Positions 20,401 through 63,804 of a stretch of DNA of 64,000 nt are shown piece by piece. Source of the DNA: Agrypnia vestita (Eukaryota > Arthropoda > Insecta > Trichoptera > Phryganeidae); assembly GCA_016648135.1 (NCBI GenBank), contig JADDOH010018668.1, positions 1 to 64,000 on the forward strand. Direction: 5' to 3'. The translations under genes were made by a program, and so were the position numbers. The notes beneath the pieces were generated by a model. That model worked only from the letters and a program-made list of their open reading frames with translations, did not search any database and had not been told where the DNA came from. Within the stretch, counting starts at the first letter, position 1. Each line of letters opens with the position of its first letter.

Positions 20401-23400
20401 TGGTGAACGTTGCATTGTGTGTGTTCACTTATTGATCACTTAAGCCAGCTGATACAGGTTGTAAGCCCTGAGCCATCGTATAAGAGACTTCCATCCAATT
20501 TTCTCAAATATAAATATCTTCGTCTCTGTGAGACTTGTATAATTCATCCTCAATTAATACATTTAAATTTAAATTAAATATAATTATAAATTGTTAGGAA
20601 GATGGATTTGGGGAAGTTAGCCTGACGGGAAGTTGAGTTCAGAACGTGGTTCGATGTATAAAACGAACTTAAAACGGTACAAATGGTCCCTAAAAGTCTC
20701 GGTATCAATATTAATTATCTTTTGAAAGTAAAAAATATTAGTAAATTAAATATTAGCAAGTCTAAGAGAATGTACTTCACACAAATCAAAAATAAAAATA
20801 ATGAAAAACCGATAGGAAGGTTCAGAGTATTGAGACCAATAGAAGGAAACCGGGAAGAACGGGACCTATATGAAAGTGATCAGTTCAAGGATACTGAATA
20901 AAACAGATAGAACAAAATGATAAGAGAAGACCACCTCAGGATGAACGGGATAAACAGAAGACAAAATAAGAAAATAATACGCAACAATAGAGCTAGGAAG
21001 AAGTTGGCTAAGGCATATGTCGTGTTGATGATGATGATGATACGCATGTACACATACACACTTTCGCAAATTAATTTTACTTTCTTGATTGCACTTCGAC
21101 TGCTAACTGTCAATTTGGTGTAAAAACAAAAAAACGTTTATATTAAAACATCCCTTTGCATAAATTTTTTAAATAACATACTTTTTTTACAAATATTTAA
21201 GAAATATTTATGTAAATTTATATTATATTTATTTCTTAAATGAAAAAAAATCTTTTGCGATTCTGTATTTTCCTTAAATTACCGAATATTTGTGTGTTTT
21301 TGAAGATACACAGATTCATCACAAAGTACTCGATATGTTCATTATTTAATCTTTTTTTATGTAGGTACAAAACCATTAGTGTTTTATGGGTAAATATTAA
21401 TATTTTTCTGTACATAGATATTAATATTGTATTATATAATAAATGTTTATACATACTATGTCAGAGCGCTGTAATATTTATAAATTAATAAATTTGTTAT
21501 GAAATACCTGCAAAACTCTTTTGGATAGTCCTGTTTTCTGCGCCAGCTGCTTGAGGTCCTTGGCATCAGGGTTCTGGTTGATGGCGAAGTAAGACTTCAT
21601 GGTCCTGAGCTGGTGGTGTTTGAAGCTGGTCCTCATTCTCTTTGTGCGCTGGGAGTGCCTTCCCGAAGCACTGCTGGGGGACGCCACCGAGGAGTCGTAG
21701 GACAAGGACTCCATCGACGAGTTCAGGTCGGCCGGATGAAGTATCTCTGGCAAGAAAACAAATACTAAGAAAATCATCGTCAAAACTGCGTAATCGTCCA
21801 ACCGTAGCCTTTGCTCGTCGTTCTTCCAAAATTGCAATGCGGGATCCAACCTGCAAGTCACTAGTTCTCTCCTTAAGGCAGCTACGAGGAAAATGCTAGG
21901 AATTGAACCAACCCCTCATTTTTTTAATTTGATTAAGTCATTTGAAACTGTCGATAGCCAGACTTAGACACATCGAAGTTCCGTTATCCTGATAAAATCG
22001 ACAAAATTCTGTAGCTTTTTCATGACGGAATGAAAGCATTAGTGGTTCAGCATTCTGTTCTCAGGTTTTCAAGGTGGTTCAGAATTTTTTGGTATTGTTT
22101 TCTGGAATATTCTGCGGTGTATATGTGACCTCTCTGGCCGACATTTCGGATCCCATTGCAGGGCCCATCATCATGTGTTGTGAAGAACACGAAACGTTGG
22201 TCAGAGAGGTCAGAAATATACGACATCCCAGAAATCTACCCGCAGAAAATTATTGATCCTGTCTGTCGTGTTGGAAACAGCTAAACAGAGGTTACCAGAC
22301 GATGTTCAGCAGACATACTGCTTTGAAGAAGGATTACCTTTCTCAAAGAAATACCGTTGTAGAAGAAAAAGACCACGGATCTGCATGTAACTGCATTACA
22401 ACCTGCAGATTTGTATACATATCACGAGTTTAATTAAACTGTCGATGTTTTTAAGAGACCATGACGGCACGTAGTAAAATCGAAATTCCTCTATAAAAAA
22501 ACGATATTCTTGAATACCTCAAATACTGAAAGACGAACAAACAGGGTACTGACTTTCTTATACACAAGATGCTCCAGAACTTGTGGGTTCAGGATTGGGC
22601 TCTTCAGTCACCTGAAGAAGTGAATCTTTGTCAATTTATCATCTCTTTATATCTCATTCGCATCACTTTCGATTTGCTAACATTCGTGAGATATACACTT
22701 TCCATGAATACGTGCTAGCCATTCTAGGACATTCTAGCCACCATGCATTGATTAGCATCACTATTATCTACTTACACTGCATCATCCGCATATAGTAGAC
22801 AGGATGTGATCACATTATTATCATAATTAGTGATGGTATTTAAACCGGCGACAGGCCAACCATTTTTTGAGATTTGTATCTGATTGTATCCATGATTGGC
22901 AACTAATTTTTTGCAATTATCGGTACTAGATAATAGCGAAAATACGCATAATAAATAATAGAACGGTTCTATCTTAGTTACTAGACATCGGTACAATCGG
23001 ACACAAATCTCAACTAACTGTACCGAAAATATCCGATTAAAAGAACCGTTTGACGTCACTAATTATAATCTATATTCTAAATGATTTTTTATACTAAAAA
23101 TATTGTTTAGAATTTATTTTTTTTATAAAAAATTTAGATTGTGGCGGATACGCCTCGCCAGTATGGCGACATCTGTGGGCCACGCGGCTCGTGACGGTTA
23201 GTAAATAAATTGTTAAAATGACGCCAGGCGGCGCTTTGCCACCAAACCGCGTAAAGAGGGACGGAGTCCAGAGATGCCAAGTCTGGAGAAGAACCGACAC
23301 TCCCGCACCACCAGCGGCCAGACTAATCAGACTTCTCCACCAGTACCTAATATCACTTATTGATTGTAAACTGCCATGCCTCTGCATATTTAACACTTTG

Positions 23401-26400
23401 CAACATTTAATACTAACTTTATGTGTAAACATTAAAAAGTGAATACAGTAGTCAATTATTAGTGTTTCCATTCTCAATTACAACATCCTTCTATCTCCGG
23501 CGTAATAACTGTATGTAAGTACTCGTCGATATTATTAATTATATTTCGCGTGTTGGTCGCGCCAACCATTTCGTAGAAACGATACGCGTCACGATCTTCT
23601 ACCCGCAGTACCGATACATTTTATTAGATCATTTATATAAATCTTAAATTATCTTCAGCTTAAATCACATTTTTCAAAATATTTTGCACATTTCGAGGAT
23701 AATTTGTCAGATTTCTTGACAAAATTGTCTTTCTTTTATAACCGTAGTCACTTTCCTTTGTAATAGCGTCAAGGATAAAAATCAGGTGAATAAAGCGGCC
23801 AAATGATATCATAAAATTTTTGCATTACGCTGTAAGGAAATGCAAGCCGCAAAAATTGCACGGCAGCGTAACCTGTGTGCTATATGGCTCAGTCGTGCAG
23901 AAAGCACATGTGCTGCAGACCTTGTTATTGAATTTCACATATATAAGGTTTAACGAAATCGTGCTACGAATACATCGTTATGATTTTAGCGAATTCTTGT
24001 GCATGACGTCTAAATGACGTATCTAGACAATTTACGTAATCGTACACAGTTTTGAACGTCATAAACAAACATAAACGTAATCTCAAACAGTTTTACTTAC
24101 AGCTTCAACCTTTAAGTAGTATTCGTATGAGATTTTTTTTTTTGCTGCTAGACTTTGGCAAGTCTTGCAATGTAAGTACTGAATTGTACAAATCACAAAA
24201 ATCTTGGAGTATTCGCAATGGGAGATGCATTTTTATGAAAAGTTTAAATAACACTGGTTTACAAGGTTCTTGCTTGCTAGAATCCGAGAACTATTTGTTA
24301 AAGATTCTTTTAGCCGATTCCTGATCTGTGCTTTTTTTATCACTTCAGAAAAAAAGTTGGCAAATATTATGTTCATAATTTTTTGCAATATATAAAGGGT
24401 TATTTGGAAAACATTAATAACCTCGCAGGACTGTACTCGTACCTTGAGTGTGAGTCGAAAATGTCCAAGCTATTATGACCTAATATCAAAAGTTAAGGAG
24501 ATATGCGACATCATATCTCCTTAACTAACTTGTATTAAAGGGAAAGAATTTTTCGTAATTGATATTAGTTAGTGTAATGATATTCCAACGTTTTACAAAA
24601 AATAAGTCGGAAATATTGAAAAAAAATGCCAACTTTGATGTTGCATATCTCCATAACTATTGATATTAGGTCATGACAGCTTGGACATTTTCGACTCATA
24701 ATCAAGGCAGGAATACAGTCCTGCAAGGTTTTTAACGTTTTCCAAATAACCCTTTATATGAGTAAGTTTTAAAGAATCAGTGATATCTACTTAAATTAAT
24801 GTGGGCTTTTTCGTTGAAATGACGTTGTATTATGTTGAAAAGCAAATAACGAATATATTTGTATATCAAAAACTTTATGTAGTGGAAAAGAGCTGTTTCG
24901 ATTGGCTAGAGAAAGGGAGATGGGCTCTAAAGTGACAGTCAACGTTGGGGGTCCTGACTCAACACTAGAAGAAGAAAACTGGAAAAAATGTTTTTAATTA
25001 TAATAATAATTTTAATTTTAATTAAATAAACACCATCAAATTAATATAGAACGCTTATCTTGATCGAGCGAGTTGCCAAACTTTTGGGTGTTCTACTGTT
25101 ATGCAAACTAAATATACTGAAAAGCTAAAAATGAGTAGTGGTATCTCAAAAACGGTACGTGATAGGGAAAAACGGTGTTGATTTTTGGAATCAGCACCAT
25201 CAAATTAGTCTCAAACAGATGTTATTAATTTTAATTAAACATTTTGTATTAAACACTTAACTAGTAACGTGACGTCTACCGGTTTCGATACCACCGTATC
25301 TTCATCAGGACGGACGGGCGTTGCTACAGCTATGGTGGGGGTAATTGAGAAGCGGACGCCGAAATGGGGAATATAAGTAAAGGGTATATAATTAAGTAAA
25401 GAATATAAGTAGAAGTAAAGGGCTATTCATAAAATTGTTCTGGTTGTTAATTATATCGGCTTAAGTGTTCAGGCATTTTTTTATTTCTTGTATTTCTAAG
25501 TTATCTAATCTAAGGCCCTATTATTTTCGTGTAGAATCTTGATACCGTTTTCCTTTTTTCAGAATTCTAGAACCATCTTTTGGTAACAGGCCACACGTTT
25601 AAAAACGTGGTATCGAAACCGGCAGACGTAGAGTTACGAGTTAAGTGGTTAATACAAAGTTGTTTAATTAAAATTAAAAATTAAAAACAAAATTAACTCT
25701 ACAAACATCGAAAATGAAACAGAAGTTTTTATCAAGGAAGCAGATAAAAAGTCAAAATTTGTTGGCCACCTAAGTTTGAAAAATTATTTATATTTATTGT
25801 ATACTAAAAAGTTATTCCCAAAAAACATCTCGCGTCCCAAAAATATTTCGCGTCTCGCGACACAAAAATTCATTTACGGAAAAAATTAGACTATTGTGAA
25901 TTGCTTCCCGCCGGTATAATGAGCTGTGGTATGTTGCGGCCTCGATATTGTAAAATACACGTACAGATATTGGCTTCACTCTCGCGATGCGGACGTCTGG
26001 TGGATCTAAAATATAAGGGCCAATTTGTGCTCCGGAATAACATCTTCCCTAAGATGAAGACGTCTTTGTTGTCAAAAGCGCATCAGATGGGGTGATACGT
26101 CACGCTGTTTTCATGTTGAAGGGCCGAGGGGCGGGCGTCCTGCGCGGCCGAGCAGGAGCGGGTGCAGCTTTAAAGGTTTTAATAGATTATAATAAAGTTG
26201 GTACTGCGCGATCCTAAACCTGAAATACCGGTATTGTAATCGCCACTACGATAAGAGTGGTGTACCCCTGATCAAACTGTTAGGTGTTTTAATGAACGGT
26301 CTATTAATGTGCTGTGTTGTATCACGCGCTGTTTCATTGCGATGTGAAGTAACTTTTGCGTACGGCGCCTGTGTAACACGTCGACCATATAAATATATTT

Positions 26401-38400: not shown

Positions 38401-41400
38401 ACATCTCTGCCTTAGAGCTTTGGAACTGGAGAGAGTTGGCACTAGACCGAGATGAGTGGAGGAAAATTATTGAGGAGGCCAAGACCCACCAAAGAGGTGC
38501 CAAGAATGATGATGATGATGATGATAAGTCTAAAAAATTAATTTTATTATTTGTTTGAATCTACTTATATTCATTTATTACACATACATGTTTCGGAAAA
38601 ACCTTTCAATCGTCAGGGTGTTTTATAAATGTCAAAATATCAAAATGAACGATCACGCTGATGATGGACAGGTTTTTCATAAACATTTAGGTGTAATTAA
38701 TGAATATAAGTACATTAAAATAAATAATAAAATTAATTTTTTAAAATGTCAGTGTACACAGTTGCTCAACCAATTGAAAAGATCTATTTATTTTAATTTG
38801 TTTCAACCATGCACCTTCGATCGACGAAAGGAAAAATATTTTAGATGATATAATTTAAATTTTTCAAACTTCTCGTATAGATTTAAATACTGGTAATCGA
38901 TAAAAAGTATACGATTCTTTGTTATGAAGGTGTTCGACGTAATATTTCTGTGAATACGTTTTAATTTCAGAAAGTCAAATATTGATGTTTGGTTTTATCC
39001 TCTTCGCTCACTTTACTGTTGGTAATTTTAAAACCCTACACTTAAAGCTGTCTCTATCACCTGCTAGATTCTCACCCCCTGATTACTTAATGTCATCATT
39101 CGTTTTATACTAAATCAATCAATTTGTATTAATTCTAAAATCTCTATAAATTTAAAGATTCCTTGGATAAATTATATACTATGTGATGTGACAAGTAATA
39201 GTGATATATCCAAGAAAAACAGATAGTAGGATAAACTCGGGAAAAGTTTGCTTTGATTTTTGGAGATTGCTGTCGCTGAGGTGGTTGTTACAGAATTTAA
39301 ATATTAAACTAAATGAAACACTGATAAAACCGATTACTCTATAGGCACAGGCGTGAAGTTAAGTCTGTCAAGTTTGTAGGTTTTTGAAAATAAATTCGTA
39401 CTCAAGGTTACTGGTATAATACGAGATAAACCGAGGACGGAAAAGCCAAAAACTGTAATTTTGGGTACTATACACGTCCCAGATATCCTGAGAAAGGTGA
39501 AAGCACGAATGCTGCAGTGGACAGAATATTTGAATCACGTAACACGCTCAAAGTCAAAAAATGTTCTTAGGTTCTCTCGTCGTTCAAAATCATTTGGTTT
39601 GAGTTTTCTGAGATATGGTTATTGATGTCATGTCTATCTCTTGTTTTTAGATTTTTGAATTTTACATTTCATTTTATTTTACTGTCATTTTTATTGCTTC
39701 TTGATTTTTAGATTGGATTTGTTTACAATTATTTCATTTTGTTGTAATTTTGTTGCTTCTTGAATTTCAGACATAATTATTTTAATTTGTTGTAGTTTTA
39801 TTGATTGTTGACATTCATATTTGATTTGATAACTATTATTTCATTTGATGTAATTTTGTTATACTTTATGTTAAGTAATGTTTTATTTTTCTTTATATAT
39901 CACTTTATTAATTGTTTTTGATAGAATTATATCTTATCTCCTTTTTTTATTATTACCTATCAATCTAAACATGTTTATATATATTGTTTCTTTAATGGTA
40001 CGTTGTACCGTGTATTAATTAATTAAATAAATATTATGCCGTGTTTTTCAACCTTTCTGGCCAAAATTTCGGATTCCTTTGCAGGGTCCATTATCAAGGC
40101 CGATGTGTTGTTGATGGGGAAGAGCGGGTAATGTTAAGATGGACCTGCAAAAAGTGAGCGCGTTTCCTGAAGATTGGGGCGTAGTTATTAAGGGATGGAA
40201 AACCTCTTTTGTGATTTCTGTCATAGACTTTCGAGTACCATGGGTCCGCTGATTCTATTTTTTTATTTTAATTAGACCTTTGTATATATTGATGTATTCT
40301 TCTTATGTTTCTTCTTCTGCAATACCAGGATCAATACATAGCGTCTTCGGTCCGATAATAGGTTAGAATTAACCTCGGTCCTAGGTCCCGCAGTTTTCAG
40401 CAAGATTAATCAATATTAAAAAAAATTAAAAATAAATCCATCCAGTATCCAATCTTGCAGATTGTGCTTCAGGTCGCAAAAATGCACTGAGGAAAAATCC
40501 CTTTAGGTATCTGCGCAGTGTTTTCAAAATATTAGAATAATATTTTATTTTCCAGTGTCAGATTTAATGTTGAATTAAATTATACAGAGCATAAATAATT
40601 TGCAAATTTCATGATAATTCATTTCTAAAACAAACAAAATTATACAATTTTTTATATCATTTTTAACAGAGAACTGATACGCCAATCGCTTAAACGCAAC
40701 TTCACAACATATGAAATCATAGTAAATAATTACAATCTTTTCAAGTAACGCATACGCCAATTATCTTCACAATAACTAGTATGTTATCAGAAAATGAGAC
40801 AAATGATAAAGAAGATTATAAAATAAAATAAACATCTTTTAGCACATACAAATATTTTATTCACGCTGTTATCAATTCAGATCTTTACAAGTTTACAAGT
40901 AAATAAACATAATCGCTCTTCGCAAATAATCCCTTTAAAAAGCATAAGAAAATAGCTTTTAAAATTATATTATACATAAAACAAATGCAAGGAAATAATA
41001 TTTTTGATGTTTATAGCGTTAACTTTATGGTTAAACATAATTATAAATTTTACTTAAATAACTTTGTAAAAACCACTTAAATTTAAGTGGTTTATACAAA
41101 GATATTTAATTAAAATTTATACAAGGAAATAATTCTCAAAATTGCAATCTTGATTATTAACGCAATAATAAATATTTCATCCCTATAATATAGATACTTT
41201 GATTACAACTGAATTATATTGAGTAGCGCTGGAATATAAAAAACTTCTCCTTCAACTCGATTCAAAACATCGAAATATTTTCATTCTTAAACTATTATTT
41301 CGCACAAAATCTTTGAACTCGATATAGGCTTAAAAATAATTCATAGGAAATTTTTTATAAGGAATTGAAATAATGTATAAAGAAAGAAAAGAAATAACAC

Positions 41401-44400: not shown

Positions 44401-47400
44401 AATTTGGGTTAGTGTACAGGATACATCGCTGAATGAGTGCAGTCATCCATTGGTACTACCCGAAGGCAAGCTTGAGGACGAAAAGCCGCTCTAAAACATG
44501 CTGGACTGACGAAATCATCAAATTCTGCGAAAATACAGTGCAGCAAATTAAAATGGCCATAGAAAAAAGGAAGGAAGACATCGGGGATGCCTTTATCCAG
44601 CACTAGATAGTAATATAAAACTCGGGTGTGGGTCAACTTTCCGACAACTCAACTCCCAGACAAAAAATTATTTCATTTAGGATTTGTATTCGCATATTTT
44701 TGTGAAAATATGCATTGACTTATTTTAAACTGTTTTTGAGAATATTTTTTCTATGGGGATTTTTGTAAGCTGAGGAAATTTCATTTCCTATCTTTCCGAA
44801 AAATTGTGTTGAATATTCACGTGTTTTTTATTAAACTAATTACTCTATAATTTGTTGTAAGAAAAGTATATAATCTAAACAGCAAAAATAAAACTTAATA
44901 GTACACATAATTGGAATACAATTAGAAATATCAATACTCATATAACACCTAGAAATAGGTTTGTGTGTTTTTTTGTAACTTTTGTTTATACAAAGCAGTT
45001 TAAAATCGTAAATGCATTTTAAAAAACACATACTTAGCACACTATTAGAAATATCTGTATTAAAAATAATACCTTGATGTTGTTTTATGTAGTCTGGAGT
45101 GTTGAGATTATTTTTTTACAAAAATAAGTTTAAAATCTAAAATATATTAAAAATAAAACTTTATATTAAAAACATTAATCATCAATATCATTGAAAGATT
45201 TGGTAGATACTTCGTGGTGCAACTTGTAATTTAAAATATGTTTTACTTTACTTTGTAATACACACACACAATATGAGTTGTTATATTACTACTATAGTTT
45301 CGAGAGGAGCAGTCCCTCTCATCATTAGGTATAGAGATCAACATCATCATCACCTGATGAAGAGAGGGACTGCTCTTCTCGAAACTAAAGTAGGAATTTA
45401 ATAACTCATATTGTGTGTGTATTACAAAGTAAAGCAAAACATATTTTAAACATTAATCTTCTTTTGAAATTTTTCGAATTTTTCTAAATTAGTGTTAAAG
45501 GTATTTCTTTTTACATACAAATTTGATTTAAAAGTACTTTTAAAAAAACACAACAATAAAACACATCAGAATATTCAAAACAATTTCAAAATATTGTTTG
45601 AAATGAATCATCTTTAAGTAACACACTAGGGAAAAATATAATTTAAAAAATATACTATCGGTTTGATGTTAGGTGTTAGGTAATAGATGAATATGTTTAC
45701 AGATGAAAAAATTATGCACGTATTTTTTTAAAGAATTCTAGAATACAACATCTTATAATTTAAATAAAAAGTTGGCTTGTTGGGAAATCGGGTGTCGGGC
45801 AATCAGCTGTCGGGCAATCGGCTGTCGGTCAATGGGCTGTCGGGCAGTTGGTTTGTCGGGAAATCGGCTATCGGGCAATTAGCTTTCGGGCAATTGGCTG
45901 TCGGACAATCAGCTCTCCGGCAATTTTTTCGTACATTGGTTGTTTTAAAATACATTAAAAAAATTATTTGTAGTAGGTAAGTGAAAATGAAATTTGTTTT
46001 TGTTTATGTGCTTGAATACGCGAGTTTATAAAACTGAACGTGTATGAAGTATTATTGAGCCTTAAATGAGACAATCGTGTGACTGTTCGAATTGATACTA
46101 CAAAATGTGTCAAACAGGGATGCGTAATGTGACAATGGCTTTTCAACCTGTCCATGGATAATTGTATGAAATAACTGAAGGAACTGAAGTAGGAGCGAAA
46201 ATGGACGGGCTTACCATATCCTGCCTACTGTACGCAGATGATGCAGTATTAGTGGCTAAATGCGAAGCTGATCTACAATGCCTGGTATCATGGATGTCCG
46301 ATGTTTGCTTGTAGCGTGAACTTAAGGTGAATGTCAGCAAATAAAACGTGATGGTGAAGAAACGAAAAAGAGTTTTTAAGTGTGATGTAATCGTAAACAA
46401 TAATACTTAGAACAAGTGAACGATTTGTGTATTTGGGAAATATATTTAGTAGGTACAGCAATACTAGGAACCATATCAAAAGGAAAGAATGTGAGAAATG
46501 AAATAAATGGCGCTCTTAATTTAATTATGGCAAATATGAATCCCTCAAAGGAAGTCAGACTAGCGGTACATAATAGCATTCTATTGCCAGTTCTGATCTA
46601 ATTCGTTCAGTTCAGTTCTAATGCGTTCTATAGCCAAGTAAGCGATGTCTTCAATTGGTAAAATAGGAATGAAATTAGGCTGAATTCGGTAGAAATGCGG
46701 TCACTAAGGCGCTAGTGTGGTAAACCTTTGGTCCATAGAGTGAGGAGTGAACAAATTAGAAGTGAATATTATTCTGGCTGAAGCGTGGTAAATATAATGA
46801 AGAAAGGATCGCTGAGAAGGTTGGTCATGTGGAACGCATAGGCGAGGAACTTGTTAAGGAAATATATGAGGCGAGTGTTGAAGGTAGCAGGAATAGAAAG
46901 ATCGACCTGTTAAAAGCTACAACAACTGTATAGAGGAAGCGAAAGTGTAGTGTAAATAAAGAAAGAAAATATGGAGTTTTATCCTCTCCATCTTCCCGTG
47001 CAGAGAAACGGCTCGATGGTTAGATAGTTAGTTAGTGTATTTATATCCATAGAATATCCTAGTTTGGTTATATCGAATTAGAGAAAGATAAATATAAAAC
47101 TGCACAAGGTGAGTGTTGATGAGATCAGAAATTTAGTACCTACTTGGAGAAACTAGAGACCAGTAAGAAGGTCCTGTTACGTAGAAAATAATAATCGACA
47201 GAGATATAAAATGAGATGAGAGTTTCGCGTGTCATGGAGAATGTGATGTTTATCGTGATCGATTCCAAAGATTTTAAATTAAAATAAAATATAACAGTTG
47301 CGGTAATACATGATATCTCGTATTATACATAATATCTCGTATTACTCATTAAAAAAAAGTATCCTCTAAAATCAGAGTTTAATTGATAGAAACGTTAGCA

Positions 47401-49564
47401 AACAACTGTTCTGTAACATCAATCACACAGTCAATGGTCAAATCTCGGGTGAAGGAGAGATTCTTATTCCTAGGTTCGAAGCATTGCATTGTATGTTTAT
47501 TTTTATTAAATAAAGCAAATAAAATTAGATAAAATAATAATTATTAAAAGTGAATGAGATTTTAATATATTTTTTTAAATTACATATCCATTATGCAAAC
47601 AATCAATTTTTATCTATGACTTCTTGATTAGTATAAATTACATCTTAAATCTTGTTAATATTTATTTGTCTATTATGGTGATTAATGTAATAGTTATAAA
47701 TACATATTTAAAAAAAACTCATTGTTTGATGCCATTGTATTGAATAAATACCAACTAGTTTTGACTACCAAACGACTCCTCAGAACATCTGAAATTAAAG
47801 TCCTGATATCCACTGCTGGAAAAACTTTACATGCTCGTGTCCGAACTGTAGATATAAGAGAAACATGCAAAATAGAGGACATATCATAGATGAAATAGAT
47901 CCAGAAGGAGATTCTGGAGGGATCACGTAGCCAGAACACAGTGACAGATTCGTGCATACAGCAGCTAATGAAATCCCCTCTGGACAATGCCCACCGGGAA
48001 GAAGACCGAAACCTCGTCATCACAGGAGGCGTAGTTTTCTGTCCTAAGATCGACTGACCAAAGATCGACAGATCTAATAAAAGAAAAAGAAGTGGAAGAA
48101 GTAGTTTCGGCTCAGAGATAAGCCTTATTAGGTTTGAATATATACTGTAAATTTATTTAAGTACCTATATATTCAACCCTAATGAAGGCTCAGCTTCGAG
48201 ACGAATCTAGTTGGTATTTTATTTAATATTTAATTTTATTCATGTAAAAGTTAACATTTTTTGGTGCTACCTAGTTTCCTATTATTTAAACACAGTGAAA
48301 ATACGTTGGGTATTAAGCTATACTTAATCTTATTGGATTCAGTAGAAACAAGAAAAAAATTTAATGTAGGAATCTCCTAGTAATAAATAAAATCCATCCT
48401 ACCTACTATTGCAATTCATTGGTTATCAGCTTTGAACTTTCCATAACTCTGCAAGATTGATTAATATAACTAAAGACCAGGGGCGTGCAGTGGAAACAAG
48501 AAGCGTGACTTTTTCCTGAGCATATATTTTGAAAAGAAACCGAAATAAGAGATATATCTACTAATATTCAAATCAAAATAATTAACATTATATTCAGATT
48601 TTAATATTTCATCATATTCTGCTAGTTAAATATTTAATTTCGTTATTTTTTCTCAAATATACGGTTACATAAAAGTCATGCTTCTTAATCCCACTGCACG
48701 CGCCTGCTAAAGACACACTTAGCATCATGCTGTTTCATTTTAATTTATTTTCATGTTATAATCGCGCCGTTTCTCTCCAGAGGAAGTCGATGAGAGCTCC
48801 ACAATATTCTTTCCTATTAAACCTCTCTTGATCACTTTCACACATAAATAGTCGAATATGGCCATCTTCAAATATGTGGTAAATGTGTGTATTAAATTGT
48901 TAAACTCCACTATGTAGTAAACTTTCAATAAATTGGTCGCAGTTTACAAACTCACCCCAGATATTGAAAAAATGGATACCACCGTATAAAAAATAAACAA
49001 ACAAATTTTTATAATCTTCTAACATTAAAGGCCGCCATGAGGGTTAAATATTTGTATATTTTTATCTGGAGGGCAAAAAAAAGACATAAAAAATACACTT
49101 GACTTGAAAAAAAAACAAAAAAAATGATCTACTAACCAATTAAAGGTTCCCACAAAAATACCCAACATCGTACATTGTACTAAGGATTTCTTATTTGACT
49201 TTATTACAAATAATAATAAAAAGATAAATCTAAAAAAAATAGTAATACTGAATACTTAGAATAACACGTGTAGTTTTTGAAAAGATCTAAGAGTTGTCGC
49301 ATGGTTAAAATAAATTAAAATAACAAATAAAAATAACAAATAAAAATAACAATAGATTAAAATACTTTCAAAAACAGTTTTTTTGAAATGGTTAATTTAA
49401 ACCATTTTTTGAAATGGTTAATTTAAACCATTAAAAAAAATAGAAATAATAAAAAAAATTGTTTAAAAATTATTTTACCTATCCAAAATTGCTCCCCCGC
49501 ACCCCGCGCACCCTTCGGGTGGTGCCGGAGATCTCTCGGGAACTCCGTCCCTATCCTTGAGCAT
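17277..49564 (-). CDS. ap: apterous / Lhx2-Lhx9-type LIM-homeodomain transcription factor (whole gene)
   Basis: Six coding exons (49564-49479, 42935-42801, 36668-36432, 35236-35103, 21746-21508, 17474-17277) join with matching phases into 1029 bases, i.e. 342 residues plus stop. LIM1 is residues 19-71 (C19, C22, H40, C43, C46, C49, C68, D71). LIM2 is 81-134 (C81, C84, H103, C106, C109, C112, C131, H134). The basic KGRPRKRK linker is 169-176 and the homeodomain about 232-291 (W279, F280, N282, R284). LIM domains recruit the Chip/Ldb cofactor; the homeodomain binds TAAT-type sites. Known roles of the family are dorsal wing/appendage identity and neuronal fate. Linker and homeodomain are closer to Lhx2/9-like apterous paralogues than to Drosophila Ap, as far as memory allows. 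It is shorter than typical members, so 5' exons may be missing. Confidence 0.93.
17560..17706. mobile_element. GCCGGCAAAC-ended MITE, copy 1
   Basis: TIRs TTGCCGGCAAACTTCTTGAA and TTCAAGATGTTTGCCGGCTA surround a short core containing GACAAAATTTGGGTCTCT. Copies at 50824-50958 and 58888-59019 carry the core in the opposite orientation. Located in the last apterous intron, 86 bases from exon 6. Confidence 0.8.
17710..19780. other. Apterous last-intron sequence, no gene seen
   Basis: AT-rich. A 10-bp-stem palindrome (AGCTCCAAGG ... CCTTGGAGCT) lies at about 17899-17929. A LINE-tail-like stretch (TTTCAGCTCGATTGGATCAC) is at about 18385. GC-richer sequence of unknown nature lies at 18900-19090. 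Confidence 0.4.
19791..19840 (-). repeat. 15-bp minisatellite, about 3 units
   Basis: On the minus strand the units read GGGCA(A/G)T(C/T)GG(C/T)T(T)ATC. It is the same 15-base motif as the longer array at 45778-45927, in the opposite orientation. Two distant, inverted occurrences suggest that a mobile element carries it. Confidence 0.6.
19905..20035 (+). repeat. Dispersed repeat, TCGTCTCTGTGAGAC family (copy)
   Basis: Contains TTGTAAGCCCTGAGCCATCG, GAGACTTCCATCCA and CTTCGTCTCTGTGAGACTTC, repeated almost exactly at 20458-20560. Diverged relatives are at 28088-28160, 52330-52450 and 53230-53350. Function unknown; non-coding. Confidence 0.65.
20458..20560 (+). repeat. Dispersed repeat, TCGTCTCTGTGAGAC family (copy)
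   Basis: About 90% identical by eye to 19910-20015. It is preceded by TGATCACTTAAGCCAGCTG, which also precedes the copies at 52350 and 53235. That places the family's conserved order as TGATCACTTAA..CAGC, TAAGCCCT, GTCTCTGTGAG. Confidence 0.65.
20683..20901 (+). other. Unidentified 72-codon open frame
   Basis: Begins MVPKSLGININYLLKVKNIS and is Lys/Asn-rich. It is followed by a frame with an AKAYVVLMMMM-like end caused by a GATGATGAT run near 21030. Such (GAT)n tails end several LINEs in this window (e.g. 38505-38525), so this may be the 3' end of a retrotransposon. No domain is recognised. Confidence 0.25.
21508..21746 (-). CDS. ap: apterous exon 5: homeodomain helices 1-2
   Basis: Acceptor TTCTTGCCAG|AGATAC, donor TTGCAG|GTATTT; 239 bases. 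Encodes a Ser-rich lead (MESLSYDSSVASPSS), then RTKRMRTSFKHHQLRTMK, SYFAINQNPDAKDLKQLAQK and TGLSKRVLQ, nearly identical to apterous/Lhx2/9 homeodomains. The first codon is completed by one G from exon 4, giving Glu198. Confidence 0.96.
22135..22235. repeat. Foldback with hammerhead-like arms (degenerate)
   Basis: GACCTCTCTGGCCGACATTTC on the left is inverted as GAAACGTTGGTCAGAGAGGTC on the right. On the minus strand the left arm has ATGATGA (22168-22174), a paired GGGCCC..GGGATCC stem II and GAAAT (22143-22147). The right arm on the plus strand has only TGAAGAACACGAAACG. See the hammerhead finding. Confidence 0.5.
22772..22826 (-). pseudogene. Reverse-transcriptase palm scrap (YADD)
   Basis: The minus strand encodes VITSCLLYADDAV, the catalytic YADD box of LINE reverse transcriptases with its usual upstream context. 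Similarity ends where the MITE at 22828 begins. Too short to assign to a clade. Confidence 0.55.
22828..23061. mobile_element. hAT-like MITE with 8-bp target duplication
   Basis: Ends TAGTGATGG and GACGTCACTA are inverted. The flanking octamers ATCATAAT (22820-22827) and ATTATAAT (23062-23069) match at 7 of 8 bases, typical of hAT superfamily insertion. Length 234; internal blocks ATCGGTAC and TCTTAGTTACTAGACATCGG are shared with copies at 50-169 and 59639-59868. Inserted next to a LINE scrap. Confidence 0.75.
23132..23510 (+). other. GC-richer block, possible solo-LTR-like sequence
   Basis: Begins TGTGGCGGATACGCCTCGCC, has GTGAATACA/AATACAGT signals near its end and a TTACAACA end. The overall composition fits an insect retrotransposon LTR, but no direct repeat partner or target duplication was found. 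Weak call. Confidence 0.25.
24391..24758. mobile_element. MITE with TIR TATAAAGGGTTATTTGGAAA
   Basis: Left end TATAAAGGGTTATTTGGAAA and right end TTTCCAAATAACCCTTTATA are perfect inverses. Further inverted blocks are CGCAGGACTGTA/TACAGTCCTGCA and GAGTCGAAAATGTCCAAGC/GCTTGGACATTTTCGACTC. The centre holds a separate small palindrome around GGAGATATG (about 24495-24530). It is the best-preserved member of the family also seen at 10005, 14210, 29870 and 63915. Confidence 0.85.
25216..25680. mobile_element. Foldback element A with hammerhead-like arm
   Basis: Left arm AATTTTAATTAAACATTTTG...GTCTACCGGTTTCGATACCAC is inverted as GTGGTATCGAAACCGGCAGAC...AATTAAAATT on the right (about 75 bases). The left arm carries a complete hammerhead core on the minus strand. 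The right arm keeps only the stem II 3' side, GAAAC and helix III. No coding content in between. Confidence 0.75.
25273..25312 (-). ncRNA. Hammerhead ribozyme motif, type I layout (element A)
   Basis: Read on the minus strand: CTGATGA at 25308-25302, stem II GATAC/GTATC closed by a GGTG loop, GAAAC at 25286-25282, helix III as the palindrome ACCGGT, cleavage-site A, and stem I CGTC/GACG. Every core nucleotide of the hammerhead consensus is present. The helix III is minimal, as in Penelope-like elements and retrozymes, where dimers are thought to be the active form. Activity is not shown by sequence. Confidence 0.72.
26300..26950. other. GC-richer block with TATA-like motif, possible promoter or LTR
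   Basis: CCATATAAATATAT near 26383, GC-rich CGCGCGCGG sequence at 26590-26700, several AATAAA-like motifs (26728, 26790), ending CACGACACGTGACA. Such content within an AT-rich intron could be an alternative promoter or lncRNA start, or a solo LTR. No second copy or target duplication was found. Confidence 0.3.
27392..27632. repeat. Perfect 105-bp inverted repeat around an assembly gap
   Basis: 27392-27496 and 27526-27632 are inverse copies (for example ACTACGCATGGCTAACACAT against ATGTGTTAGCCATGCGTAGT) separated only by 29 Ns (27497-27525). (TA)n runs lie just outside at 27358-27390. Either a real palindrome that broke the assembly or a scaffolding artefact. Confidence 0.9.
27497..27525. other. 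Assembly gap (29 N)
   Basis: Run of undetermined bases at the exact centre of the inverted repeat described at 27392-27632. Confidence 1.
27640..29860. other. Intronic sequence, no gene seen
   Basis: Mostly AT-rich. A GC-richer patch at 27770-27910 contains CCGCCTGCCGCCCGCCACCC-like sequence. A diverged TCGTCTCTGTGAGA repeat copy is at 28088-28160. Nothing else is supported. Confidence 0.4.
29870..30205. mobile_element. Decayed MITE pieces, AAGTC(A)GAAATAT family
   Basis: Two partial matches, AAGTCAGAAATATGGAAAAAA with CGCAAACTTTGACG (29892) and GAGAAATATTGAAAAAACGC with AACTTTGCCCC (30090), ending AAACACCCTATATATTA. Both belong to the 24391-24758 family but are rearranged. Confidence 0.45.
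30222..30270. repeat. Perfect 21-bp-stem hairpin
   Basis: TGTGTTAAGTTTACGGATAC(G) is followed after the 7-base loop AGAGGGG by its exact inverse. No larger element could be drawn around it. Confidence 0.9.
30715..30890 (+). pseudogene. LINE C-terminal fragment
   Basis: Encodes GSLRWFGHVERVTEERMVRK-type sequence (LRWFGHVER), a hallmark of the region after the reverse transcriptase in insect LINEs, then RGRRGMTRLTRYWKM. No frame-maintaining continuation. Confidence 0.6.
31120..31430. repeat. Three imperfect about 100-bp tandem units
   Basis: Each unit starts with ATTTATAATGCT or ATTTTATAATGCT (31126, 31227, 31328) and ends with AAGAGAATAAAT-like sequence. Middles are diverged. A related duplication (AATGTTTCCAATT...) follows at 31475-31670. 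Confidence 0.6.
31663..32442 (+). other. Unrecognised open frames in the second LIM-side intron
   Basis: Frames at 31663-31896 (MLNYYVRSPQQPLSLRAKMY...) and 32094-32442 carry no domain I know and no clear splice sites. They might be decayed retrotransposon or chance frames. Confidence 0.15.
33165..33347 (-). mobile_element. tRNA-derived SINE, copy 1
   Basis: On the minus strand a Pol III A box (TGGTGTAGCGG, 33346-33336) and B box (GGTTCGAGCCC, 33302-33292) are 34 bases apart, as in tRNA genes, with GGCGCTCGCCTAATGATGTG between. The body runs to an ATTTAAAAAAAA tail at 33165. The copy at 53665-53816 shares head, body and tail. Confidence 0.8.
33505..33655 (+). pseudogene. LINE C-terminal fragment
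   Basis: Encodes RIVRNIYDARVDGIRNKRWP and LKPWESKENLRSKSL, resembling the tail of an insect LINE ORF2 (VRNIYDARVDG..GRP). No longer frame. Confidence 0.4.
34035..34225 (+). pseudogene. LINE 3' fragment with (GAT)n-like tail
   Basis: KMKWEWAGQVTN- then RGSEK- and FHPVNGRWLMMM-like codons, i.e. the AGHVAR and WL..D tail of LINE ORF2 with two stops, ending in GATGATGAT. Confidence 0.55.
34330..34812 (-). repeat. GGTACAGATTTG satellite element, inverted copy
   Basis: Two to three units inverse to those at 1380 (CAAATCTGTACCGT, CAAATTTTGCATACTTATTC and so on), then AACCTTTGTTTTCTCCCACA and a terminal ACGCCGGGTTCGAATAGCTAGT, matching the right terminus of the element at 55613-56067. Confidence 0.7.
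34846..34924. repeat. Two adjacent hairpins
   Basis: TGTAGGTATTTTATAAATAA region folds on AAAATACCTACA. Directly after, ATTATACTCTCCATAAG pairs with CTTATGGGGAGTATAAT (17-bp stem, one G-T-type mismatch, 18-base loop). Confidence 0.65.
35103..35236 (-). CDS. ap: apterous exon 4: linker
   Basis: Acceptor TATATTTTAG|GTCAAG, donor ACGCTGG|GTAGGT; 134 bases with one base carried over at each end. Encodes SSGSPNQYFSVGPVQ, KGRPRKRKSQ and DSLQVQAMRMSNNTL. The GRPRKRK basic block between LIM2 and the homeodomain is shared by apterous and Lhx2/Lhx9 and may act as a nuclear-localisation or AT-hook-like element. Phases match exons 3 and 5 exactly. Confidence 0.93.
35530..35660 (+). pseudogene. LINE C-terminal fragment
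   Basis: Encodes KWFVKWFGHVERARK (WFGHVER motif) before stops. A short scrap of a LINE ORF2 tail 300 bases upstream (by gene direction) of apterous exon 4. Confidence 0.5.
36432..36668 (-). CDS. ap: apterous exon 3: LIM2 domain
   Basis: Acceptor TTTGTCCACAG|AATGTT, donor ATGTTCAG|GTGAGA; 237 bases. Encodes MFCVKRCSRCQAGISANELV, MRAKDLVFHLSCFTCSSCGV and GMRDAAIYCRPHYE with all eight zinc ligands (C-x2-C, H-x2-C, C-x2-C, C-x2-H). One base joins AG of exon 2 to make Arg74; AG at its end joins G of exon 4 to make Arg153. GC-rich relative to the introns. Confidence 0.96.
36793..37185. repeat. Direct duplication, about 180-240 bp units
   Basis: 36793-36977 and 37036-37184 share in order GTATAATTNTAA, GTTTAGTAC, TTAGAACTTTCTCTTT, CTCTACATAATNA and CACTCACCTGTCCTACCACA. 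The second unit lacks an internal stretch. An intronic tandem duplication. Confidence 0.75.
37645..37762. mobile_element. Small palindromic MITE (copy 2)
   Basis: ACAGTCAATACTTAATGAAT and the inverse ATTTAAGTTTTGACTCTGTA flank ACGCTTAAAAGTA / GCACGCTTTTAAAGCGTACT. Same family as 14085-14197. Confidence 0.65.
37785..38530 (+). pseudogene. Non-LTR retrotransposon 3' end (RT thumb to tail)
   Basis: The frame runs NQLKTKYMAVG, FTYLGSLITSNN (FxYLG motif), EEIQKSIVSANR, a stop, then RPVLTYAAKTWVLTK (PVLxYxxxTW motif), FERKILRRIFGP, LRWLAHVDRMSE and GRRSLGGPKLR, and in another frame ELWNWRELALDRDEWR. This is the canonical C-terminal order of insect RTE/Jockey-like ORF2. It ends in a (GAT)n tract typical of a LINE 3' tail. 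At least one stop and one frameshift; non-functional. Lies in the third-to-second exon intron of apterous, on the opposite strand. Confidence 0.85.
38588..38625 (-). repeat. Degenerate hammerhead-like motif
   Basis: Minus strand: CTGACGA (38616-38610), short A/U stem II, GAAAC (38594-38590) and palindromic ACATGT. One core change (CTGACGA for CTGATGA), and stem I pairing is weak. A partial relative (CGATCGTCAGGGGTGTGTTT) is at about 63208. Confidence 0.35.
39655..39855. repeat. Imperfect about 60-bp tandem repeat, T-rich
   Basis: Units share ATTTCATTTTNTTGTAATTTT-like sequence followed by GTTGCTTCTTGA/TTTNAGA and ATNATTATTT. About three to four diverged units. Confidence 0.5.
40057..40102 (-). 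repeat. Degenerate hammerhead-like motif (F family)
   Basis: Minus strand: GGCC, then TTGATAA (40097-40091, from CTGATGA), a CCCTGCAAAGG stem-loop, CCGAAAT (GAAAT 40070-40066), then GGCC pairing for stem I. It shares GCCGTGTTTTTC upstream and the stem II sequence with 63753-63804, showing a dispersed family. Confidence 0.4.
41994..42764. mobile_element. Possible TIR element, CCCCATGGC ends
   Basis: Left ACCCCATGGCAAGAAATTGT and right ACAACTTCTCGCCATGGGGT are inverted over about 40 bases (TTGTTAAGTAACATT/AATGTTAGTTAACAA). The 770-base interior is AT-rich without coding capacity. It ends 37 bases before apterous exon 2's donor. No clear target duplication was found. Confidence 0.55.
42801..42935 (-). 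CDS. ap: apterous exon 2: second half of LIM1
   Basis: Acceptor TGATTGGCAG|GTACTA, donor TACTATAG|GTAAAA; 135 bases. Encodes YYLLAADRQWHAPCLRCCEC, RLPLDSELTCFARD and RNIYCKDDYY. It provides the H-x2-C, C-x2-C and C-x2-D zinc ligands of LIM1; the first C-x2-C lies in exon 1. Nearly identical in pattern to Lhx2/Lhx9 (DRYYLLA, CCEC, SELTCFA). Confidence 0.96.
   Translation of the reverse strand, partial: VLPAGRRQAMARALPALLRVPPAAGLGAHLLRQGPQHLLQGRLL
43338..43379 (-). ncRNA. Hammerhead ribozyme motif (element B, left arm)
   Basis: Minus strand: CTGATGA (43375-43369), stem II GACTCA/TGAGTC with GTTG loop, GAAAC (43351-43347), helix III palindrome ACTAGT, cleavage-site U, stem I AACC/GGTT. All core positions match the hammerhead consensus. 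Confidence 0.72.
43843..43883 (+). ncRNA. Hammerhead-like motif (element B, right arm)
   Basis: CTGATGA (43847-43853), the same GACTCA/TGAGTC stem II, GAAAC (43871-43875). Helix III is shortened (CTGGTT instead of TAGTTGGTT), so this arm's copy has probably lost the cleavage site. Stem I AACC/GGTT remains. Confidence 0.5.
44106..44365. repeat. Foldback with about 115-bp arms
   Basis: AAAAATGTACTTTGTTTTCA and ATTGAAAATATCAACATG on the left are inverted as CATGTTGATATTTTCAAT and TGAAAACAAAGTACATTTTT on the right, meeting at AAAATCGATTTT near 44233. Arms about 85% identical by eye; no coding content. Confidence 0.8.
45284..45332 (-). ncRNA. Hammerhead-like motif (element C, left arm)
   Basis: Minus strand: CTAATGA (45328-45322, one change from CTGATGA), stem II GAGAGGG/CTCCTCTC with ACTGC loop, GAAAC (45301-45297), helix III palindrome ACTATAGT, then A and stem I TAC/GTA. 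Confidence 0.55.
45350..45395 (+). ncRNA. Hammerhead-like motif (element C, right arm)
   Basis: CTGATGA intact (45354-45360), stem II GAGAGGG/CTCTTCTC, GAAAC (45381-45385), helix III slightly decayed (ACTAAAGT). The complementary damage in the two arms points to one ancestral intact ribozyme. Confidence 0.55.
45778..45927 (+). repeat. 15-bp minisatellite, about 9-10 units
   Basis: Units of GGGCAATCGGCTGTC with substitutions (GGGCAATCAGCTGTC, GGTCAATGGGCTGTC, GGGCAATTAGCTTTC and so on). As a frame it gives a five-residue repeat (SGNQL, SGNRL), likely incidental. Same motif inverted at 19791-19840. Confidence 0.85.
46145..46960 (+). pseudogene. Non-LTR retrotransposon, RT palm to C-terminus (decayed)
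   Basis: Encodes EVGAKMDGLTISCLLYADDA, VLVAKCEADLQCLVSWM (YADD catalytic box and following helix), a stop, then LKVNVSK, ISKGKNVRNEINGALNLIMA and KEVRLAVHNSILLPVLI (thumb region), and degraded MRSLRR, GKPLVHRVR and LRRLVMWNA. Several stops and frameshifts. Same strand sense as other LINE tails here, antisense to apterous. Confidence 0.75.
47735..47795 (-). repeat. Degenerate hammerhead-like arm fragment
   Basis: Minus strand CTGAGGA, a GTC..GTC stem II remnant, AAAAC and ACTAGTTGGTATTTATT; the outer part equals the outer arm at 48205-48230. At least two core positions are changed. Confidence 0.35.
48100..48240. mobile_element. Foldback D with hammerhead-like arms
   Basis: Left GGCTCAGAGATAAGCCTTAT, TAGGTTTGAATATATA and right TATATATTCAACCCTAATGA, AGGCTCAGCTTCGAG are inverse. 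Left arm (minus): CTAATAA (48131-48125), stem GGCT/AGCC, GAAAC (48108-48104). Right arm (plus): CTAATGA (48179-48185), stem GGCTC/GAGAC, GAATC, CTAGTTGG. Both cores decayed but orientation is again outward. Confidence 0.5.
48245..49478. other. Apterous first-intron end, AT-rich
   Basis: No exon or element recognised. A short tandem/palindromic unit (AAATGGTTAATTTAAACCAT, twice) lies at about 49385-49432, just 50 bases from the exon 1 donor. Confidence 0.45.
49479..49564 (-). CDS. ap: apterous exon 1 (first recognised): start of LIM1
   Basis: Donor TTTTGGATAG|GTAAAA. Encodes MLKDRDGVPERSPAPPEG and CAGCGGAILD, ending AG that joins exon 2 to give DRYYLLA. CAGCG is the first zinc pair of LIM1. 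ATG at 49564 keeps the frame open; an in-frame TGA lies ten codons upstream. However, CTGAATCCAG|TCATG two bases before the ATG is a possible acceptor, and related proteins have a longer N-terminus, so this could be an internal exon. The LIM identity is firm; the start is not. Confidence 0.85.
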
Positions 49565-50958: not shown

Positions 50959-50972
50959 CAGTATTAAGTATA

Positions 50973-51008
50973 CCCTGATGAAGGAACTTTGTTTCCGAAA
51001 CCGGTTGG
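50973..51008 (+). ncRNA. Hammerhead-like motif, single copy
   Basis: CTGATGA (50975-50981), stem II GGAA/TTCC, GAAAC (50997-51001), helix III palindrome ACCGGT. Stem I is short (CC/GG, then mismatches). Lies 15 bases after the MITE at 50824-50958. Confidence 0.5.
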
Positions 51009-51455
51009 CTTTACCAAAAATAAAGTAATGATGAACTATGTCAATTTGTTTAATTATATTCATAATGAATAATGACAAAGTATATAATAGCAAAATACAG
51101 CAGTAAAATATATGAGTAATTTAGTACTATTATTGCTTCCAGGGGAGGAGTCTCTCTCATCGCTAATTATATATATCGGCCATTAACGGAAACAAGTCAA
51201 GGATTGGAGAAGTGTAGTGCCTAATTAATTACTTAATTATGGTGTGCAGTATTAAATAATTATATTTTTAATTAAAATGTTGCACCGTGAAGTAACGTTC
51301 GCATCTCTATTATTTCCATTAATAATTCATAATTTAGGGGTTTTGTACTCAAGTGCATGCTAGTCTTGACAAGGTTAACACGCATGTGATAAATATTGGT
51401 GAAAAGTTAACAGTACTATGGTTGTGGTATACAGTGTTGTGAAGTATATAGTGTT

Positions 51456-51500
51456 GGCCCTGATGAAGTGACGGGTACGTCTCAAAACCGGTAGACCTAA
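51456..51500 (+). ncRNA. Hammerhead-like motif, single copy
   Basis: CTGATGA (51460-51466), stem II GTGACG/CGTCTC with GGTA loop, then AAAAC (51484-51488) where GAAAC is expected, and palindromic ACCGGT followed by A and GACC. One core base is altered; sequence otherwise close to element A. Confidence 0.45.
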
Positions 51501-51509
51501 AATCTGGTA

Positions 51510-56218: not shown

Positions 56219-57332
56219 TTAGGTCCTTACATATGAAATTGATGTTTTGCCGTACTGGCAAATTTGATCTCAAATATCTTCTCTTTGGTTAGGAATTCCA
56301 AATCCAAATTTATACAGCTATTTACTCATGTATTTGTGTTTTGAAAATTATAATTCATTTGTTTTTTCCTCAATTGTTTTTTTCTTTGCGTCACTCAGTT
56401 TACAAAATGAAAAACTTGAAATATCGCGTTATTTATGAGTACGAGTTCCACCGTGGCACCAGTGCTGCAGAAACGGCTCGAAGGATTAATGATGTGTATG
56501 GCGACGGTGCCGCTAAAGAAAACACGGTGCGTTTTTGGTTCCAAAGTTTTCGTTCTGAAAATTTCGACCTGCAGAACAAGCCCCGTGGACGGCCGGAGAC
56601 CAAAGTTGATAATGAAGAATTGAAGGCTATTGTGGAAGCGGATCCATCGCAAACCACATCCGAGTTAGCTGCAGGCTGCGGTGTTAGTGTAAAACTGTTT
56701 TAATCCACTTGAAGCAAATTGGTAAGGTGAAAAAGCTTGAAAGGTGGGTACCTCACGAATTGAGTGAAGCAAATCAACAAACGCGCGTTGACTGCTGCGT
56801 TGCATTACTCAACCAGCACAATAATGAAGGGATTTTAAATCTTAAATCTGGCCAGACGATTACGGCAGATGTCTATTGTCAGCAACTGCAAACAATGATG
56901 GAAAAGATAGCTGCTAAACAACCGAGGCTGGTTAATCGCTCTAGGCCACTGCTGCTTCATGATAACGCTAGACCACACACTGCACAACAGACGGCTACCA
57001 AAATAGAGGAGCTTCAATTGGAATGTCTAAGACATCCACCGTACTCTTCGGACCTTGCCCCAACAGATTACCATTTTTTTCGAAATTTGGATAACTTCTT
57101 GTAAAGGAAAAAATTCAACTCCGATGGGGCAGTCCAAACCGCCTTCAAAGATTTTATTGATTCCCGTCCGAATGGTTTTTTTAGTAAAGGGATCGATGAA
57201 CTACCTATGAGATGGCAAAAGTGCATAGATAGCAATGGTACATACTTTGATTAAATAAAAATATTATAATAAAAAAAAATCGGCTTTATGTTCCTCCCAT
57301 ACTAAACGCCAATTTCATATGTAAGGACCTAA
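56219..57332 (+). mobile_element. mariner, internally deleted second copy
   Basis: Same 29-base TIRs as the 11224 element (TTAGGTCCTTACATATGAAA) and TA on both flanks (56217-56218, 57333-57334). At 1114 bases it is 172 shorter than the intact copy, mainly through a deletion after GGGATTTTAAAT at about 56840. Confidence 0.95.
56407..57254 (+). pseudogene. mariner transposase, dead copy
   Basis: Closely matches the intact transposase at 11412-12431. Lesions: a one-base loss near 56690 shifts the frame after GCGVS; the internal deletion removes the block with the first catalytic Asp (TCDEKW); and CAA to TAA creates a stop after DNFL at about 57103. HDNARPH and LAPTDYHFF remain. It cannot encode an active enzyme, but its TIRs could still be recognised by transposase from the intact copy. 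Confidence 0.93.
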
Positions 57333-59635: not shown

Positions 59636-59638
59636 TTC

Positions 59639-62925: not shown

Positions 62926-62959
62926 TTTTTTGGTCTTTAATGGGAATAAATACAGCAGT

Positions 62960-63745: not shown

Positions 63746-63752
63746 TATTTTT

Positions 63753-63804
63753 GATCGACGTTTCGGATCCCATTGCAGGGTAGGTAGGTACATCATCAGG
63801 GCTG
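63753..63804 (-). ncRNA. Hammerhead-like motif (F family)
   Basis: Minus strand: CTGATGA (63799-63793), an extended stem II region ending CCCTGCAATGGGATCC, GAAAC (63764-63760) then GTC, giving helix III ACGT and the classic GUC cleavage site. Stem II holds a small insertion (TACC repeats), and stem I pairing is not convincing. Relatives at 22143-22174 and 40057-40102. Confidence 0.45.

Follow-up and report, generated by a model that had tools for sequence, protein, structure and literature searches.

Minimal type I hammerhead ribozymes were reportedly described in Penelope-like elements (PLEs) by Cervera and de la Pena in 2014 and by Lunse and colleagues in 2017. According to the accessible extracts of two other papers, minimal hammerheads lie in PLE repeats as thousands of dispersed copies (PMC6155905, PMC7761336), and the second calls their role there a mystery. 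Penelope elements, as far as the available part of PMC3846280 describes them, have inverted pseudo-long terminal repeats, a 31-bp tail that is optional on one of these, and target site duplications (TSDs) of 8-10 bp. In Poseidon of Anolis carolinensis (PAc), the PLE protein cleaves and extends both target strands, reverse transcription has two internal start sites on the RNA, one on either side of the tail, and hammerhead cleavage is unneeded in vitro; experimental validation of the later insertion steps is pending according to the same work (PMC11167929). Here we analyze a 64,000-nucleotide stretch of the genome of Agrypnia vestita (Trichoptera; contig JADDOH010018668.1, positions 1 to 64,000, hereafter the window), in which hammerhead-like modules recur in foldbacks named here by their position in kb. 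We conclude that the foldbacks are very probably PLE insertions composed of two head-to-head cDNAs made at insertion, with a hammerhead-like module in the 3' region.

The case is most complete for the family of the 43.3-kb foldback. A DNA search with this foldback gave 40 scored places of 1785 candidates, and the 30 loci fetched represent 29 distinct insertions (L017 and L030 are one). All 29 have a common unit, read on the minus strand of the window, and an open reading frame (ORF) enters this unit in all 15 copies examined. One copy carries a reverse transcriptase (RT) stretch (L033:3-353; RVT_1, E=3.1e-6, 27.5 bits, Pfam cut-off 29.6), and two match GIY-YIG, also below the Pfam cut-off of 22.6 bits (L026, E=0.0011, 19.7 bits; L028, E=0.0013); no GIY-YIG was seen in L024, the third copy tested for it. 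A search of 5.8 billion proteins returned 53 homologues, of which 49 contain PF26215, 19 RVT_1 (PF00078) and 10 GIY-YIG (PF01541); among their sources a single organism is named, Pyrocoelia pectoralis. Given RT, a C-terminal GIY-YIG domain and tailed terminal copies with TSDs, all of which were found, the sequence features identify the 43.3-kb family as a PLE with an endonuclease. Close to one copy of the family, a different GIY-YIG-like PLE C-terminus was noticed by eye (L035:2390-2617, plus strand).

The window copy is decayed and 5'-truncated. Its B unit (43286..43756, minus strand, left limit approximate) is a 5'-truncated PLE cDNA with a decayed GIY-YIG ORF end and the hammerhead-bearing 3' region, and it continues outward into a tail with the presumed start codon and an AC-rich stretch (approximately 43250..43285, minus). 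The A unit (43755..43930, plus) is a second, inverted partial PLE cDNA, which has no tail and also has its 3' end outward. Both are enclosed by the TSD ATAAATATATCT (left copy 43238..43249, right copy 43928..43939), the right copy overlapping the A end by about 3 nt. The module of the B unit (43333..43385, minus, 53.0 bits) has GACTCA/TGAGTC, the palindrome ACTAGT and a helix I of AACC/GGTT, and helix III is partly deleted in that of the A unit (43837..43886, plus, 37.9 bits). A preliminary description of the window had regarded such foldbacks as hammerhead-capped inverted-repeat elements. A separate class of this sort is not supported: at 43.3 kb, the foldback consists of two head-to-head, 5'-truncated PLE cDNAs.

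Across the family, 18 of the 29 insertions have a second unit on the opposite strand within the 1.5 kb fetched, with the 3' ends outward. The two ends of these insertions are unequal: end A stops at about TTTATTTAAAGAT and lacks a tail, and end B extends 30-40 nt further, through the presumed start codon and the AC-rich stretch. Exactly one A end and one B end are present in all 18. A target duplication of 11-14 bp, mostly 12, flanks 16 of them, compared with a maximum of 11 bp in cross-pairings (2/306). The 5' ends of the shorter units are all different in the 17 insertions with a measurement, and since inner junctions differ, the inversion forms at insertion. One-ended insertions appear to exist too, with an 11-13 bp repeat at the 5' truncation in 4 of the 11 single-arm copies (a count that has no control). 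Folding of the tail gave no hairpin better than shuffled sequences.

These ends also bear on whether the elements could be DNA-transposon foldbacks or miniature inverted-repeat transposable elements (MITEs), with the motif present by coincidence in their terminal inverted repeats. The two arms and ~12-bp TSD would suit such an origin, as would the ~270-bp two-armed units of the 45.2-kb family discussed below; however, the tail on one end, the variable inner truncation, the single-arm copies with a terminal repeat and the RT/GIY-YIG ORFs upstream make it extremely improbable. For the 43.3-kb family, classification as a MITE or foldback DNA transposon is contradicted by the unequal ends and variable truncation.

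Our preferred reading is two-ended priming. In this model, the 3' region of each family carries a putative minimal type I hammerhead, evident from sequence and covariation, in which 'helix III' is palindromic and stem II is preceded by a single additional base. When a staggered cut is made, reverse transcription of PLE RNA would be primed at each of its two ends, in an order and by an enzyme that we infer. Both cDNAs would begin near the RNA 3' end, the outer site B giving the 30-40-nt tail and the inner site A none, and they would halt at variable 5' points before joining head-to-head. The outcome would be a foldback with two outward hammerheads, flanked by a ~12-bp target duplication, which is the end anatomy seen above. 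If both ends of a staggered cut prime, the expected product is a pair of cDNAs whose 3' ends point outward, together with a short duplication, as observed.

For the same head-to-head structures, an earlier proposal is self-priming with an antisense molecule as template. It was put forward for Adineta vaga Penelope elements on the strength of palindromes located where the inverted copies join (PMC3846280, accessible part): antisense PLE RNA or cDNA would fold back at its 3' end and prime itself, and the hairpin product would insert. A comparison of arms, covering 12 of the 18 pairs, gives this proposal some support, in that the arms of L013 and L025 are identical with no other copy closer, and rare variants are common to both arms in L014 (two sites) and L016 (one site). 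The mean arm distance within pairs, 0.024, is nevertheless hardly under the between-pair value of 0.029, and the comparison does not decide the mechanism. Self-priming, as read here, predicts equal arm termini, in conflict with a tail at one end only in 18 of 18 insertions, and in the window copy the junction lies between unit positions 1 and 290 and is no tight hairpin turn. We hold two-ended priming to be the likelier route because the ends are unequal in every pair, and consider self-priming a doubtful, though serious, alternative.

Several further observations, like the self-priming proposal itself, count against two-ended PLE insertion as the general explanation. For 11 of the 29 copies, the fetched 1.5 kb contains no second arm, and 2 of the 18 pairs lack a TSD; the copies of the 43.3- and 45.2-kb families are the best whole-query matches, which favors two-armed copies. 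In the in vitro Anolis work no difference in start site between the strands was seen (PMC11167929), so that the one-tail rule is unpredicted. Within the 45.2-kb family, two separate insertions (L078 and L090) have loops only one base apart, and their junction may be inherited. Both fetched loci of the 50.97-kb family (L053 and L073) are without PLE homology. Finally, the models of Rfam release 15 found no hammerhead in the window or in two 76-nt stretches, either at the gathering cut-off or at E<=10.

Much of this anatomy has precedents. Like the GIY-YIG Penelope elements, as described in the accessible part of PMC3846280, the 43.3-kb family combines an RT and GIY-YIG ORF with 5' truncation, head-to-head copies, a short TSD and a tail (here 30-40 nt) on one of the inverted ends. 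It differs from the Penelope examples there in the TSD mode of ~12 bp, compared to 8-10 bp, in the absence of a direct tandem partner within 1.5 kb of the 29 copies, and in the coexistence of several families in one genome. The likeness to PAc (PMC11167929) includes two RT starts that bracket the tail, with the outer one in the AC-rich start of the ORF, cutting and extension of both target strands, a hammerhead near the junction of repeat and ORF, and an AT-rich target. Unlike in PAc, the tail ends ~37 nt past the presumed start codon rather than 111-118 nt, and there is exactly one tailed end per paired insertion. Inverted one-tailed PLE copies and minimal PLE hammerheads are thus already published (PMC3846280 and PMC7761336, in the parts available), and the foldbacks are no new class of element. 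Neither a one-tail rule that holds strictly across many insertions nor a short family of two ends only was found stated in the literature searched, from which subscription journals were mostly absent and of which some papers were available in part. Thousands of intact modules, the strict end asymmetry and the ~12-bp duplications provide natural products on which the two-ended mechanism can be tested.

We then examined the modules at the genome scale. A strict pattern (CTGATGA-N-G-N(8-14)-C-GAAAC-NN-GT) has 7,434 exact matches in the 1.32-Gb assembly and none when the pattern is read backwards. Among the 100 of these matches listed for inspection (59 distinct), stem II positions 2-5, which are free in the pattern, pair in 52, 48, 38, and 49 of the 59, compared with 37.2, 24.9, 25.4, and 30.4 expected from column make-up, and the palindrome's two unconstrained bases complement each other in 95 of the 100. 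In 23 of 33 modules, helix I, also free in the pattern, has at least three adjacent pairs at the offset expected for it (500 permutations: mean 13.6, maximum 18), while offsets 0, 2, and 3 give only 0, 0, and 1 such modules. Over all 30 module loci fetched (29 distinct rows), 86.2% of cells are paired compared to 69.2% after shuffling, with 64 compensatory cells compared to 20.4, and the covariation of helices I and II was matched by none of 500 shuffles. The suggestion that stem II letters differ between elements with pairing kept is thereby confirmed across several families.

In hammerheads, whose conventional position numbering we use, the base at the cleavage site is one other than G; the predicted site in the 33 modules is A in 16, T in 16, C in 1 and G in none. 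The core elements CUGANGA and GAAA and a paired stem II are likewise present. Taken together, core, helices, cleavage-site base and covariation fit a minimal type I hammerhead with reduced helix III like that of PLEs, as had been proposed, and the sequences support calling the modules hammerhead-like by structure. They share with the published PLE hammerheads, in the portions accessible, CUGAUGA, stem II, GAAA, a diminished helix III, a location in PLE repeats and copies in the thousands. The extra base before stem II, found in the five exact window modules, may also stand in the published PLE consensus. According to the available part of PMC10085705, insertions at this point in known hammerhead alignments are at most one or two nucleotides, and the modules lie within one or two extra nucleotides by CUGANGA.

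Chance matches to a short motif, the remaining explanation of the modules, would agree with the absence of Rfam hammerheads at E<=10 and with a palindrome scan of the window alone that was not significant. They are refuted as the origin of the modules by the genome count (7,434 to 0) and the covariation, and we assign them a negligible probability. For this palindrome scan, which requires a palindromic helix III and tolerates two core mismatches, there were 8 window sites compared to 2-10 in 20 simulations. When the palindrome was not required, and CTGATGA and GAAAC were sought on either side of a stem II of at least 4 bp with 0-2 additional bases allowed after CTGATGA, five exact cores were found in the window (25308-, 43375-, 43847+, 45354+, and 50975+) and none in 12 first-order Markov simulations. 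With one mismatch allowed there were eight window entries compared to 0-2 in simulations, although 45325- and 45328- are two registers of a single module and 38658+ is a degenerate copy. Single-module folding was no better than shuffles at 25.2, 45.3, and 50.97 kb and weakly better at 43.3 kb (21 of 200 shuffles equally good).

A covariance model was built from an alignment (A1) of 22 of the 30 module loci, all elsewhere in the same genome. Eight were left out (L057, L061, L062, L064, L070, L072, L074, and L075), among them L061, L062, and L074, which lack helix I pairing, and L072, the partner module of L071. The model matches 11 window modules at E<=0.014 (25268-25318-, 38576-38626-, 38648-38698+, 43333-43385-, 43837-43886+, 44157-44208-, 45284-45338-, 45344-45401+, 48169-48221+, 50965-51015+, and 51450-51502+), with the next best at E=2.7 (63748-63809-); because the training set includes other copies of the same families, these E-values mix family likeness with structure. 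Annotation that relied on Rfam alone would omit this form of the ribozyme in the window. Eight further loci from the same genome gave no match at E<=1 with this model. In two IMG/VR contigs it matches a module at E 0.0005-0.0008 (L001:6565-6620, minus; L002:11493-11548, plus); both contigs were picked by pattern, the two viral-contig patterns having given 0 and 2 matches.

The preliminary description can be revised on this basis. Its central observation, repeated outward-pointing hammerhead-like modules belonging to several families that resemble those of PLEs, is upheld, and its list of sites is corrected: the pair at 22.1 kb and the site at 63.8 kb are not significant in the model search, and two foldbacks (38.5-38.7 and 44.1-44.36 kb) as well as the module at 51.45 kb are added. 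The layout of CTGATGA followed by stem II is right for core and stem, except that exactly one additional base intervenes in all five exact modules. Of the 20 stem-forming matches in an unconstrained list, 13 have one extra base, six have two and one has none; among the 100 listed genome matches, for which the pattern itself demanded one, it is A in 90, T in 8, G in 1 and C in 1. A scan for modules without the extra base gave two weak window sites compared to 0-1 in 20 simulations. The statement that the modules always point outward holds inside each foldback and does not extend to neighboring window elements, which occur in any order (50965+ and 51450+ run in the same direction; 43837+ and 44157- point toward each other). 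At the genomic density, 0.36 strict modules are expected per 64 kb and the window has 3; since the window was chosen by a reader, this is no evidence of attraction to the locus, and the idea that the elements colonized the apterous locus in particular is not sustained, as the modules occur by the thousands genome-wide.

A further proposal was that the elements spread as self-cleaved or circular RNA in the manner of retrozymes. Known type I hammerheads include minimal forms in PLEs and canonical forms in metazoan retrozymes, and the non-LTR retrozymes resemble the present elements in that a small, non-autonomous repeat carries a hammerhead of type I (PMC7229834 and PMC7761336, accessible parts). 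The retrozymes of PMC7229834, in the part available, consist of units repeated directly in tandem, and their circular RNAs are abundant. In the 100 listed places, in contrast, all 15 neighboring module pairs at most 5 kb apart are inverted and outward and none is a direct tandem, so that membership in the retrozymes (direct repeats with a hammerhead per monomer) is not supported. The predicted cleavage site is spanned uncut in 31 of 36 cDNA units, and no measured unit begins at position 416, just past it, the nearest starting at 423; because units run across the site, the inserted templates were mostly uncut there, as in the Anolis work. Folding prediction for an RNA that spans the entire 43.3-kb foldback gives a single long hairpin (-317 kcal/mol, compared to a mean of -116 for 20 shuffles), in which the module would pair with its antisense copy and the ribozyme would be buried. 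On these grounds spread of retrozyme-like elements as cleaved or circular RNA is very unlikely. Under two-ended priming the hammerhead would be dispensable for defining the inserted ends, and judging from published work it would most likely act as a dimer or with protein assistance in PLE transcripts; dimeric cleavage of such variants has been published, to go by a title cited in PMC7761336.

For the 45.2-kb family, all 40 places scored of 1601 candidates, including the window, match both strands, and 38 span the query from <=22 to >=278, indicating units of ~270 bp with two arms. Twenty copies were fetched with about 80 bases of flank, of which L078 and L079 have identical flanks and are one locus obtained twice; with the window there are 21 sequences. 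The arms align, and 16 of the 17 parsed loops (16-36 nt) are distinct. A TSD of at least 11 bp is present in 13 of the 21 sequences, compared to a maximum of 10 in cross-pairings (1/418), and one end of the unit has a tail. In the window, the palindromic unit (45181..45450) runs from the tail (~45181-45231) through the minus arm, loop and plus arm to the tail-less end, and is flanked by the TSD AAACATTAATC (45170..45180 and 45448..45458, the right copy overlapping the arm end by ~3 nt). Its modules are CTAATGA with ACTATAGT (45284..45338, minus, 18.0 bits) and CTGATGA with stem II GAGAGG../..CTTCTC (45344..45401, plus, 21.6 bits). The family looks like a short non-autonomous PLE of two ribozyme-bearing ends, one that would use PLE enzymes. 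We tentatively suggest, as a possibility short of even odds, that PLE integration is two-ended by rule, with a different RNA start site for each target end, and that the 45.2-kb family consists of two ribozyme-bearing ends rebuilt at each insertion. If so, these insertions could be the footprint of a paired complex that gives each DNA end its own start site.

Among the remaining families, the evidence points to a PLE connection for that of 25.2 kb (GATAC/ACCGGT); for the others the connection is inferred. Homology to PLE proteins lies within 1.5 kb of 13 of the 30 module loci (29 distinct, L071 and L072 being one place), and in 10 of the 13 it is upstream on the same strand, as compared to 0 in the reversed control. 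At 25.2 kb, the expected PLE ORF upstream on the module strand was found at three of five fetched loci (L046, L069, and L074, the last with a weak tblastn match, E=1.8e-4), with L064 and L067 giving no match. The window foldback of this family (25222..25680) has 74-nt arms that are 88% identical. Its left arm carries the module (25268..25318, minus; GATAC/GTATC, palindrome ACCGGT), as reported; the right arm, at 25.6 kb, which had been credited with the motif as well, has no CTGATGA and retains only the 3' half of stem II and GAAAC. No TSD was found where it was sought at 25.2 and 22.1 kb, and between 47.7 and 48.2 kb, where two zones were compared, a 10-base candidate in one of them is unconvincing, as 2% of random zones contain such a match.

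The window contains further modules. The foldback 38531-38743 has a CTGACGA module with GAAAGGTTTTTCC and ACATGT in its left arm (38576..38626, minus) and a degenerate one in its right arm (38648..38698, plus). The foldback 44105-44358 contains a decayed module (44157..44208, minus), whose right-arm counterpart (44255-44306+) reaches only E=3.2, and the right arm of the 48.1-kb foldback has another, with TCTAGTTGGT (48169..48221, plus). A single module with GGAAC/GTTTCC and ACCGGT is located at 50965..51015 (plus, 50.7 bits), followed by a decayed one with ACCGGT (51450..51502, plus, 41.3 bits). At 22135..22215 there is an old foldback remnant with GAAAT/GAAAC ends.

The modules lie close to, and also between, coding segments of an apterous/Lhx9-type LIM-homeobox gene, in agreement with the placement in and around apterous originally given. 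A homeodomain on the minus strand (21478-21912) matches Lhx9 in PDB, and translation by hand revealed a LIM domain near 42.8 kb. Elsewhere in the window we noted two related mariner-like transposase ORFs, named by eye (11298-12431, plus, and 56293-57104, plus, the second broken), and an inverted pair (6368-6685 and 8115-8437) of ~320 nt, 89% identical and 1.4 kb apart. A near-perfect palindrome at 27392-27631 consists of two directly adjoining arms of 120 nt that are 99% identical. By eye, 45785-45925 is a short degenerate tandem of CGGGCAATCGGCTGT-like units, with a related stretch near 19796 on the opposite strand. Two short foldbacks, 14089-14188 and 37647-37746, are related to each other, and the first has weak sub-threshold matches to miRNA models.

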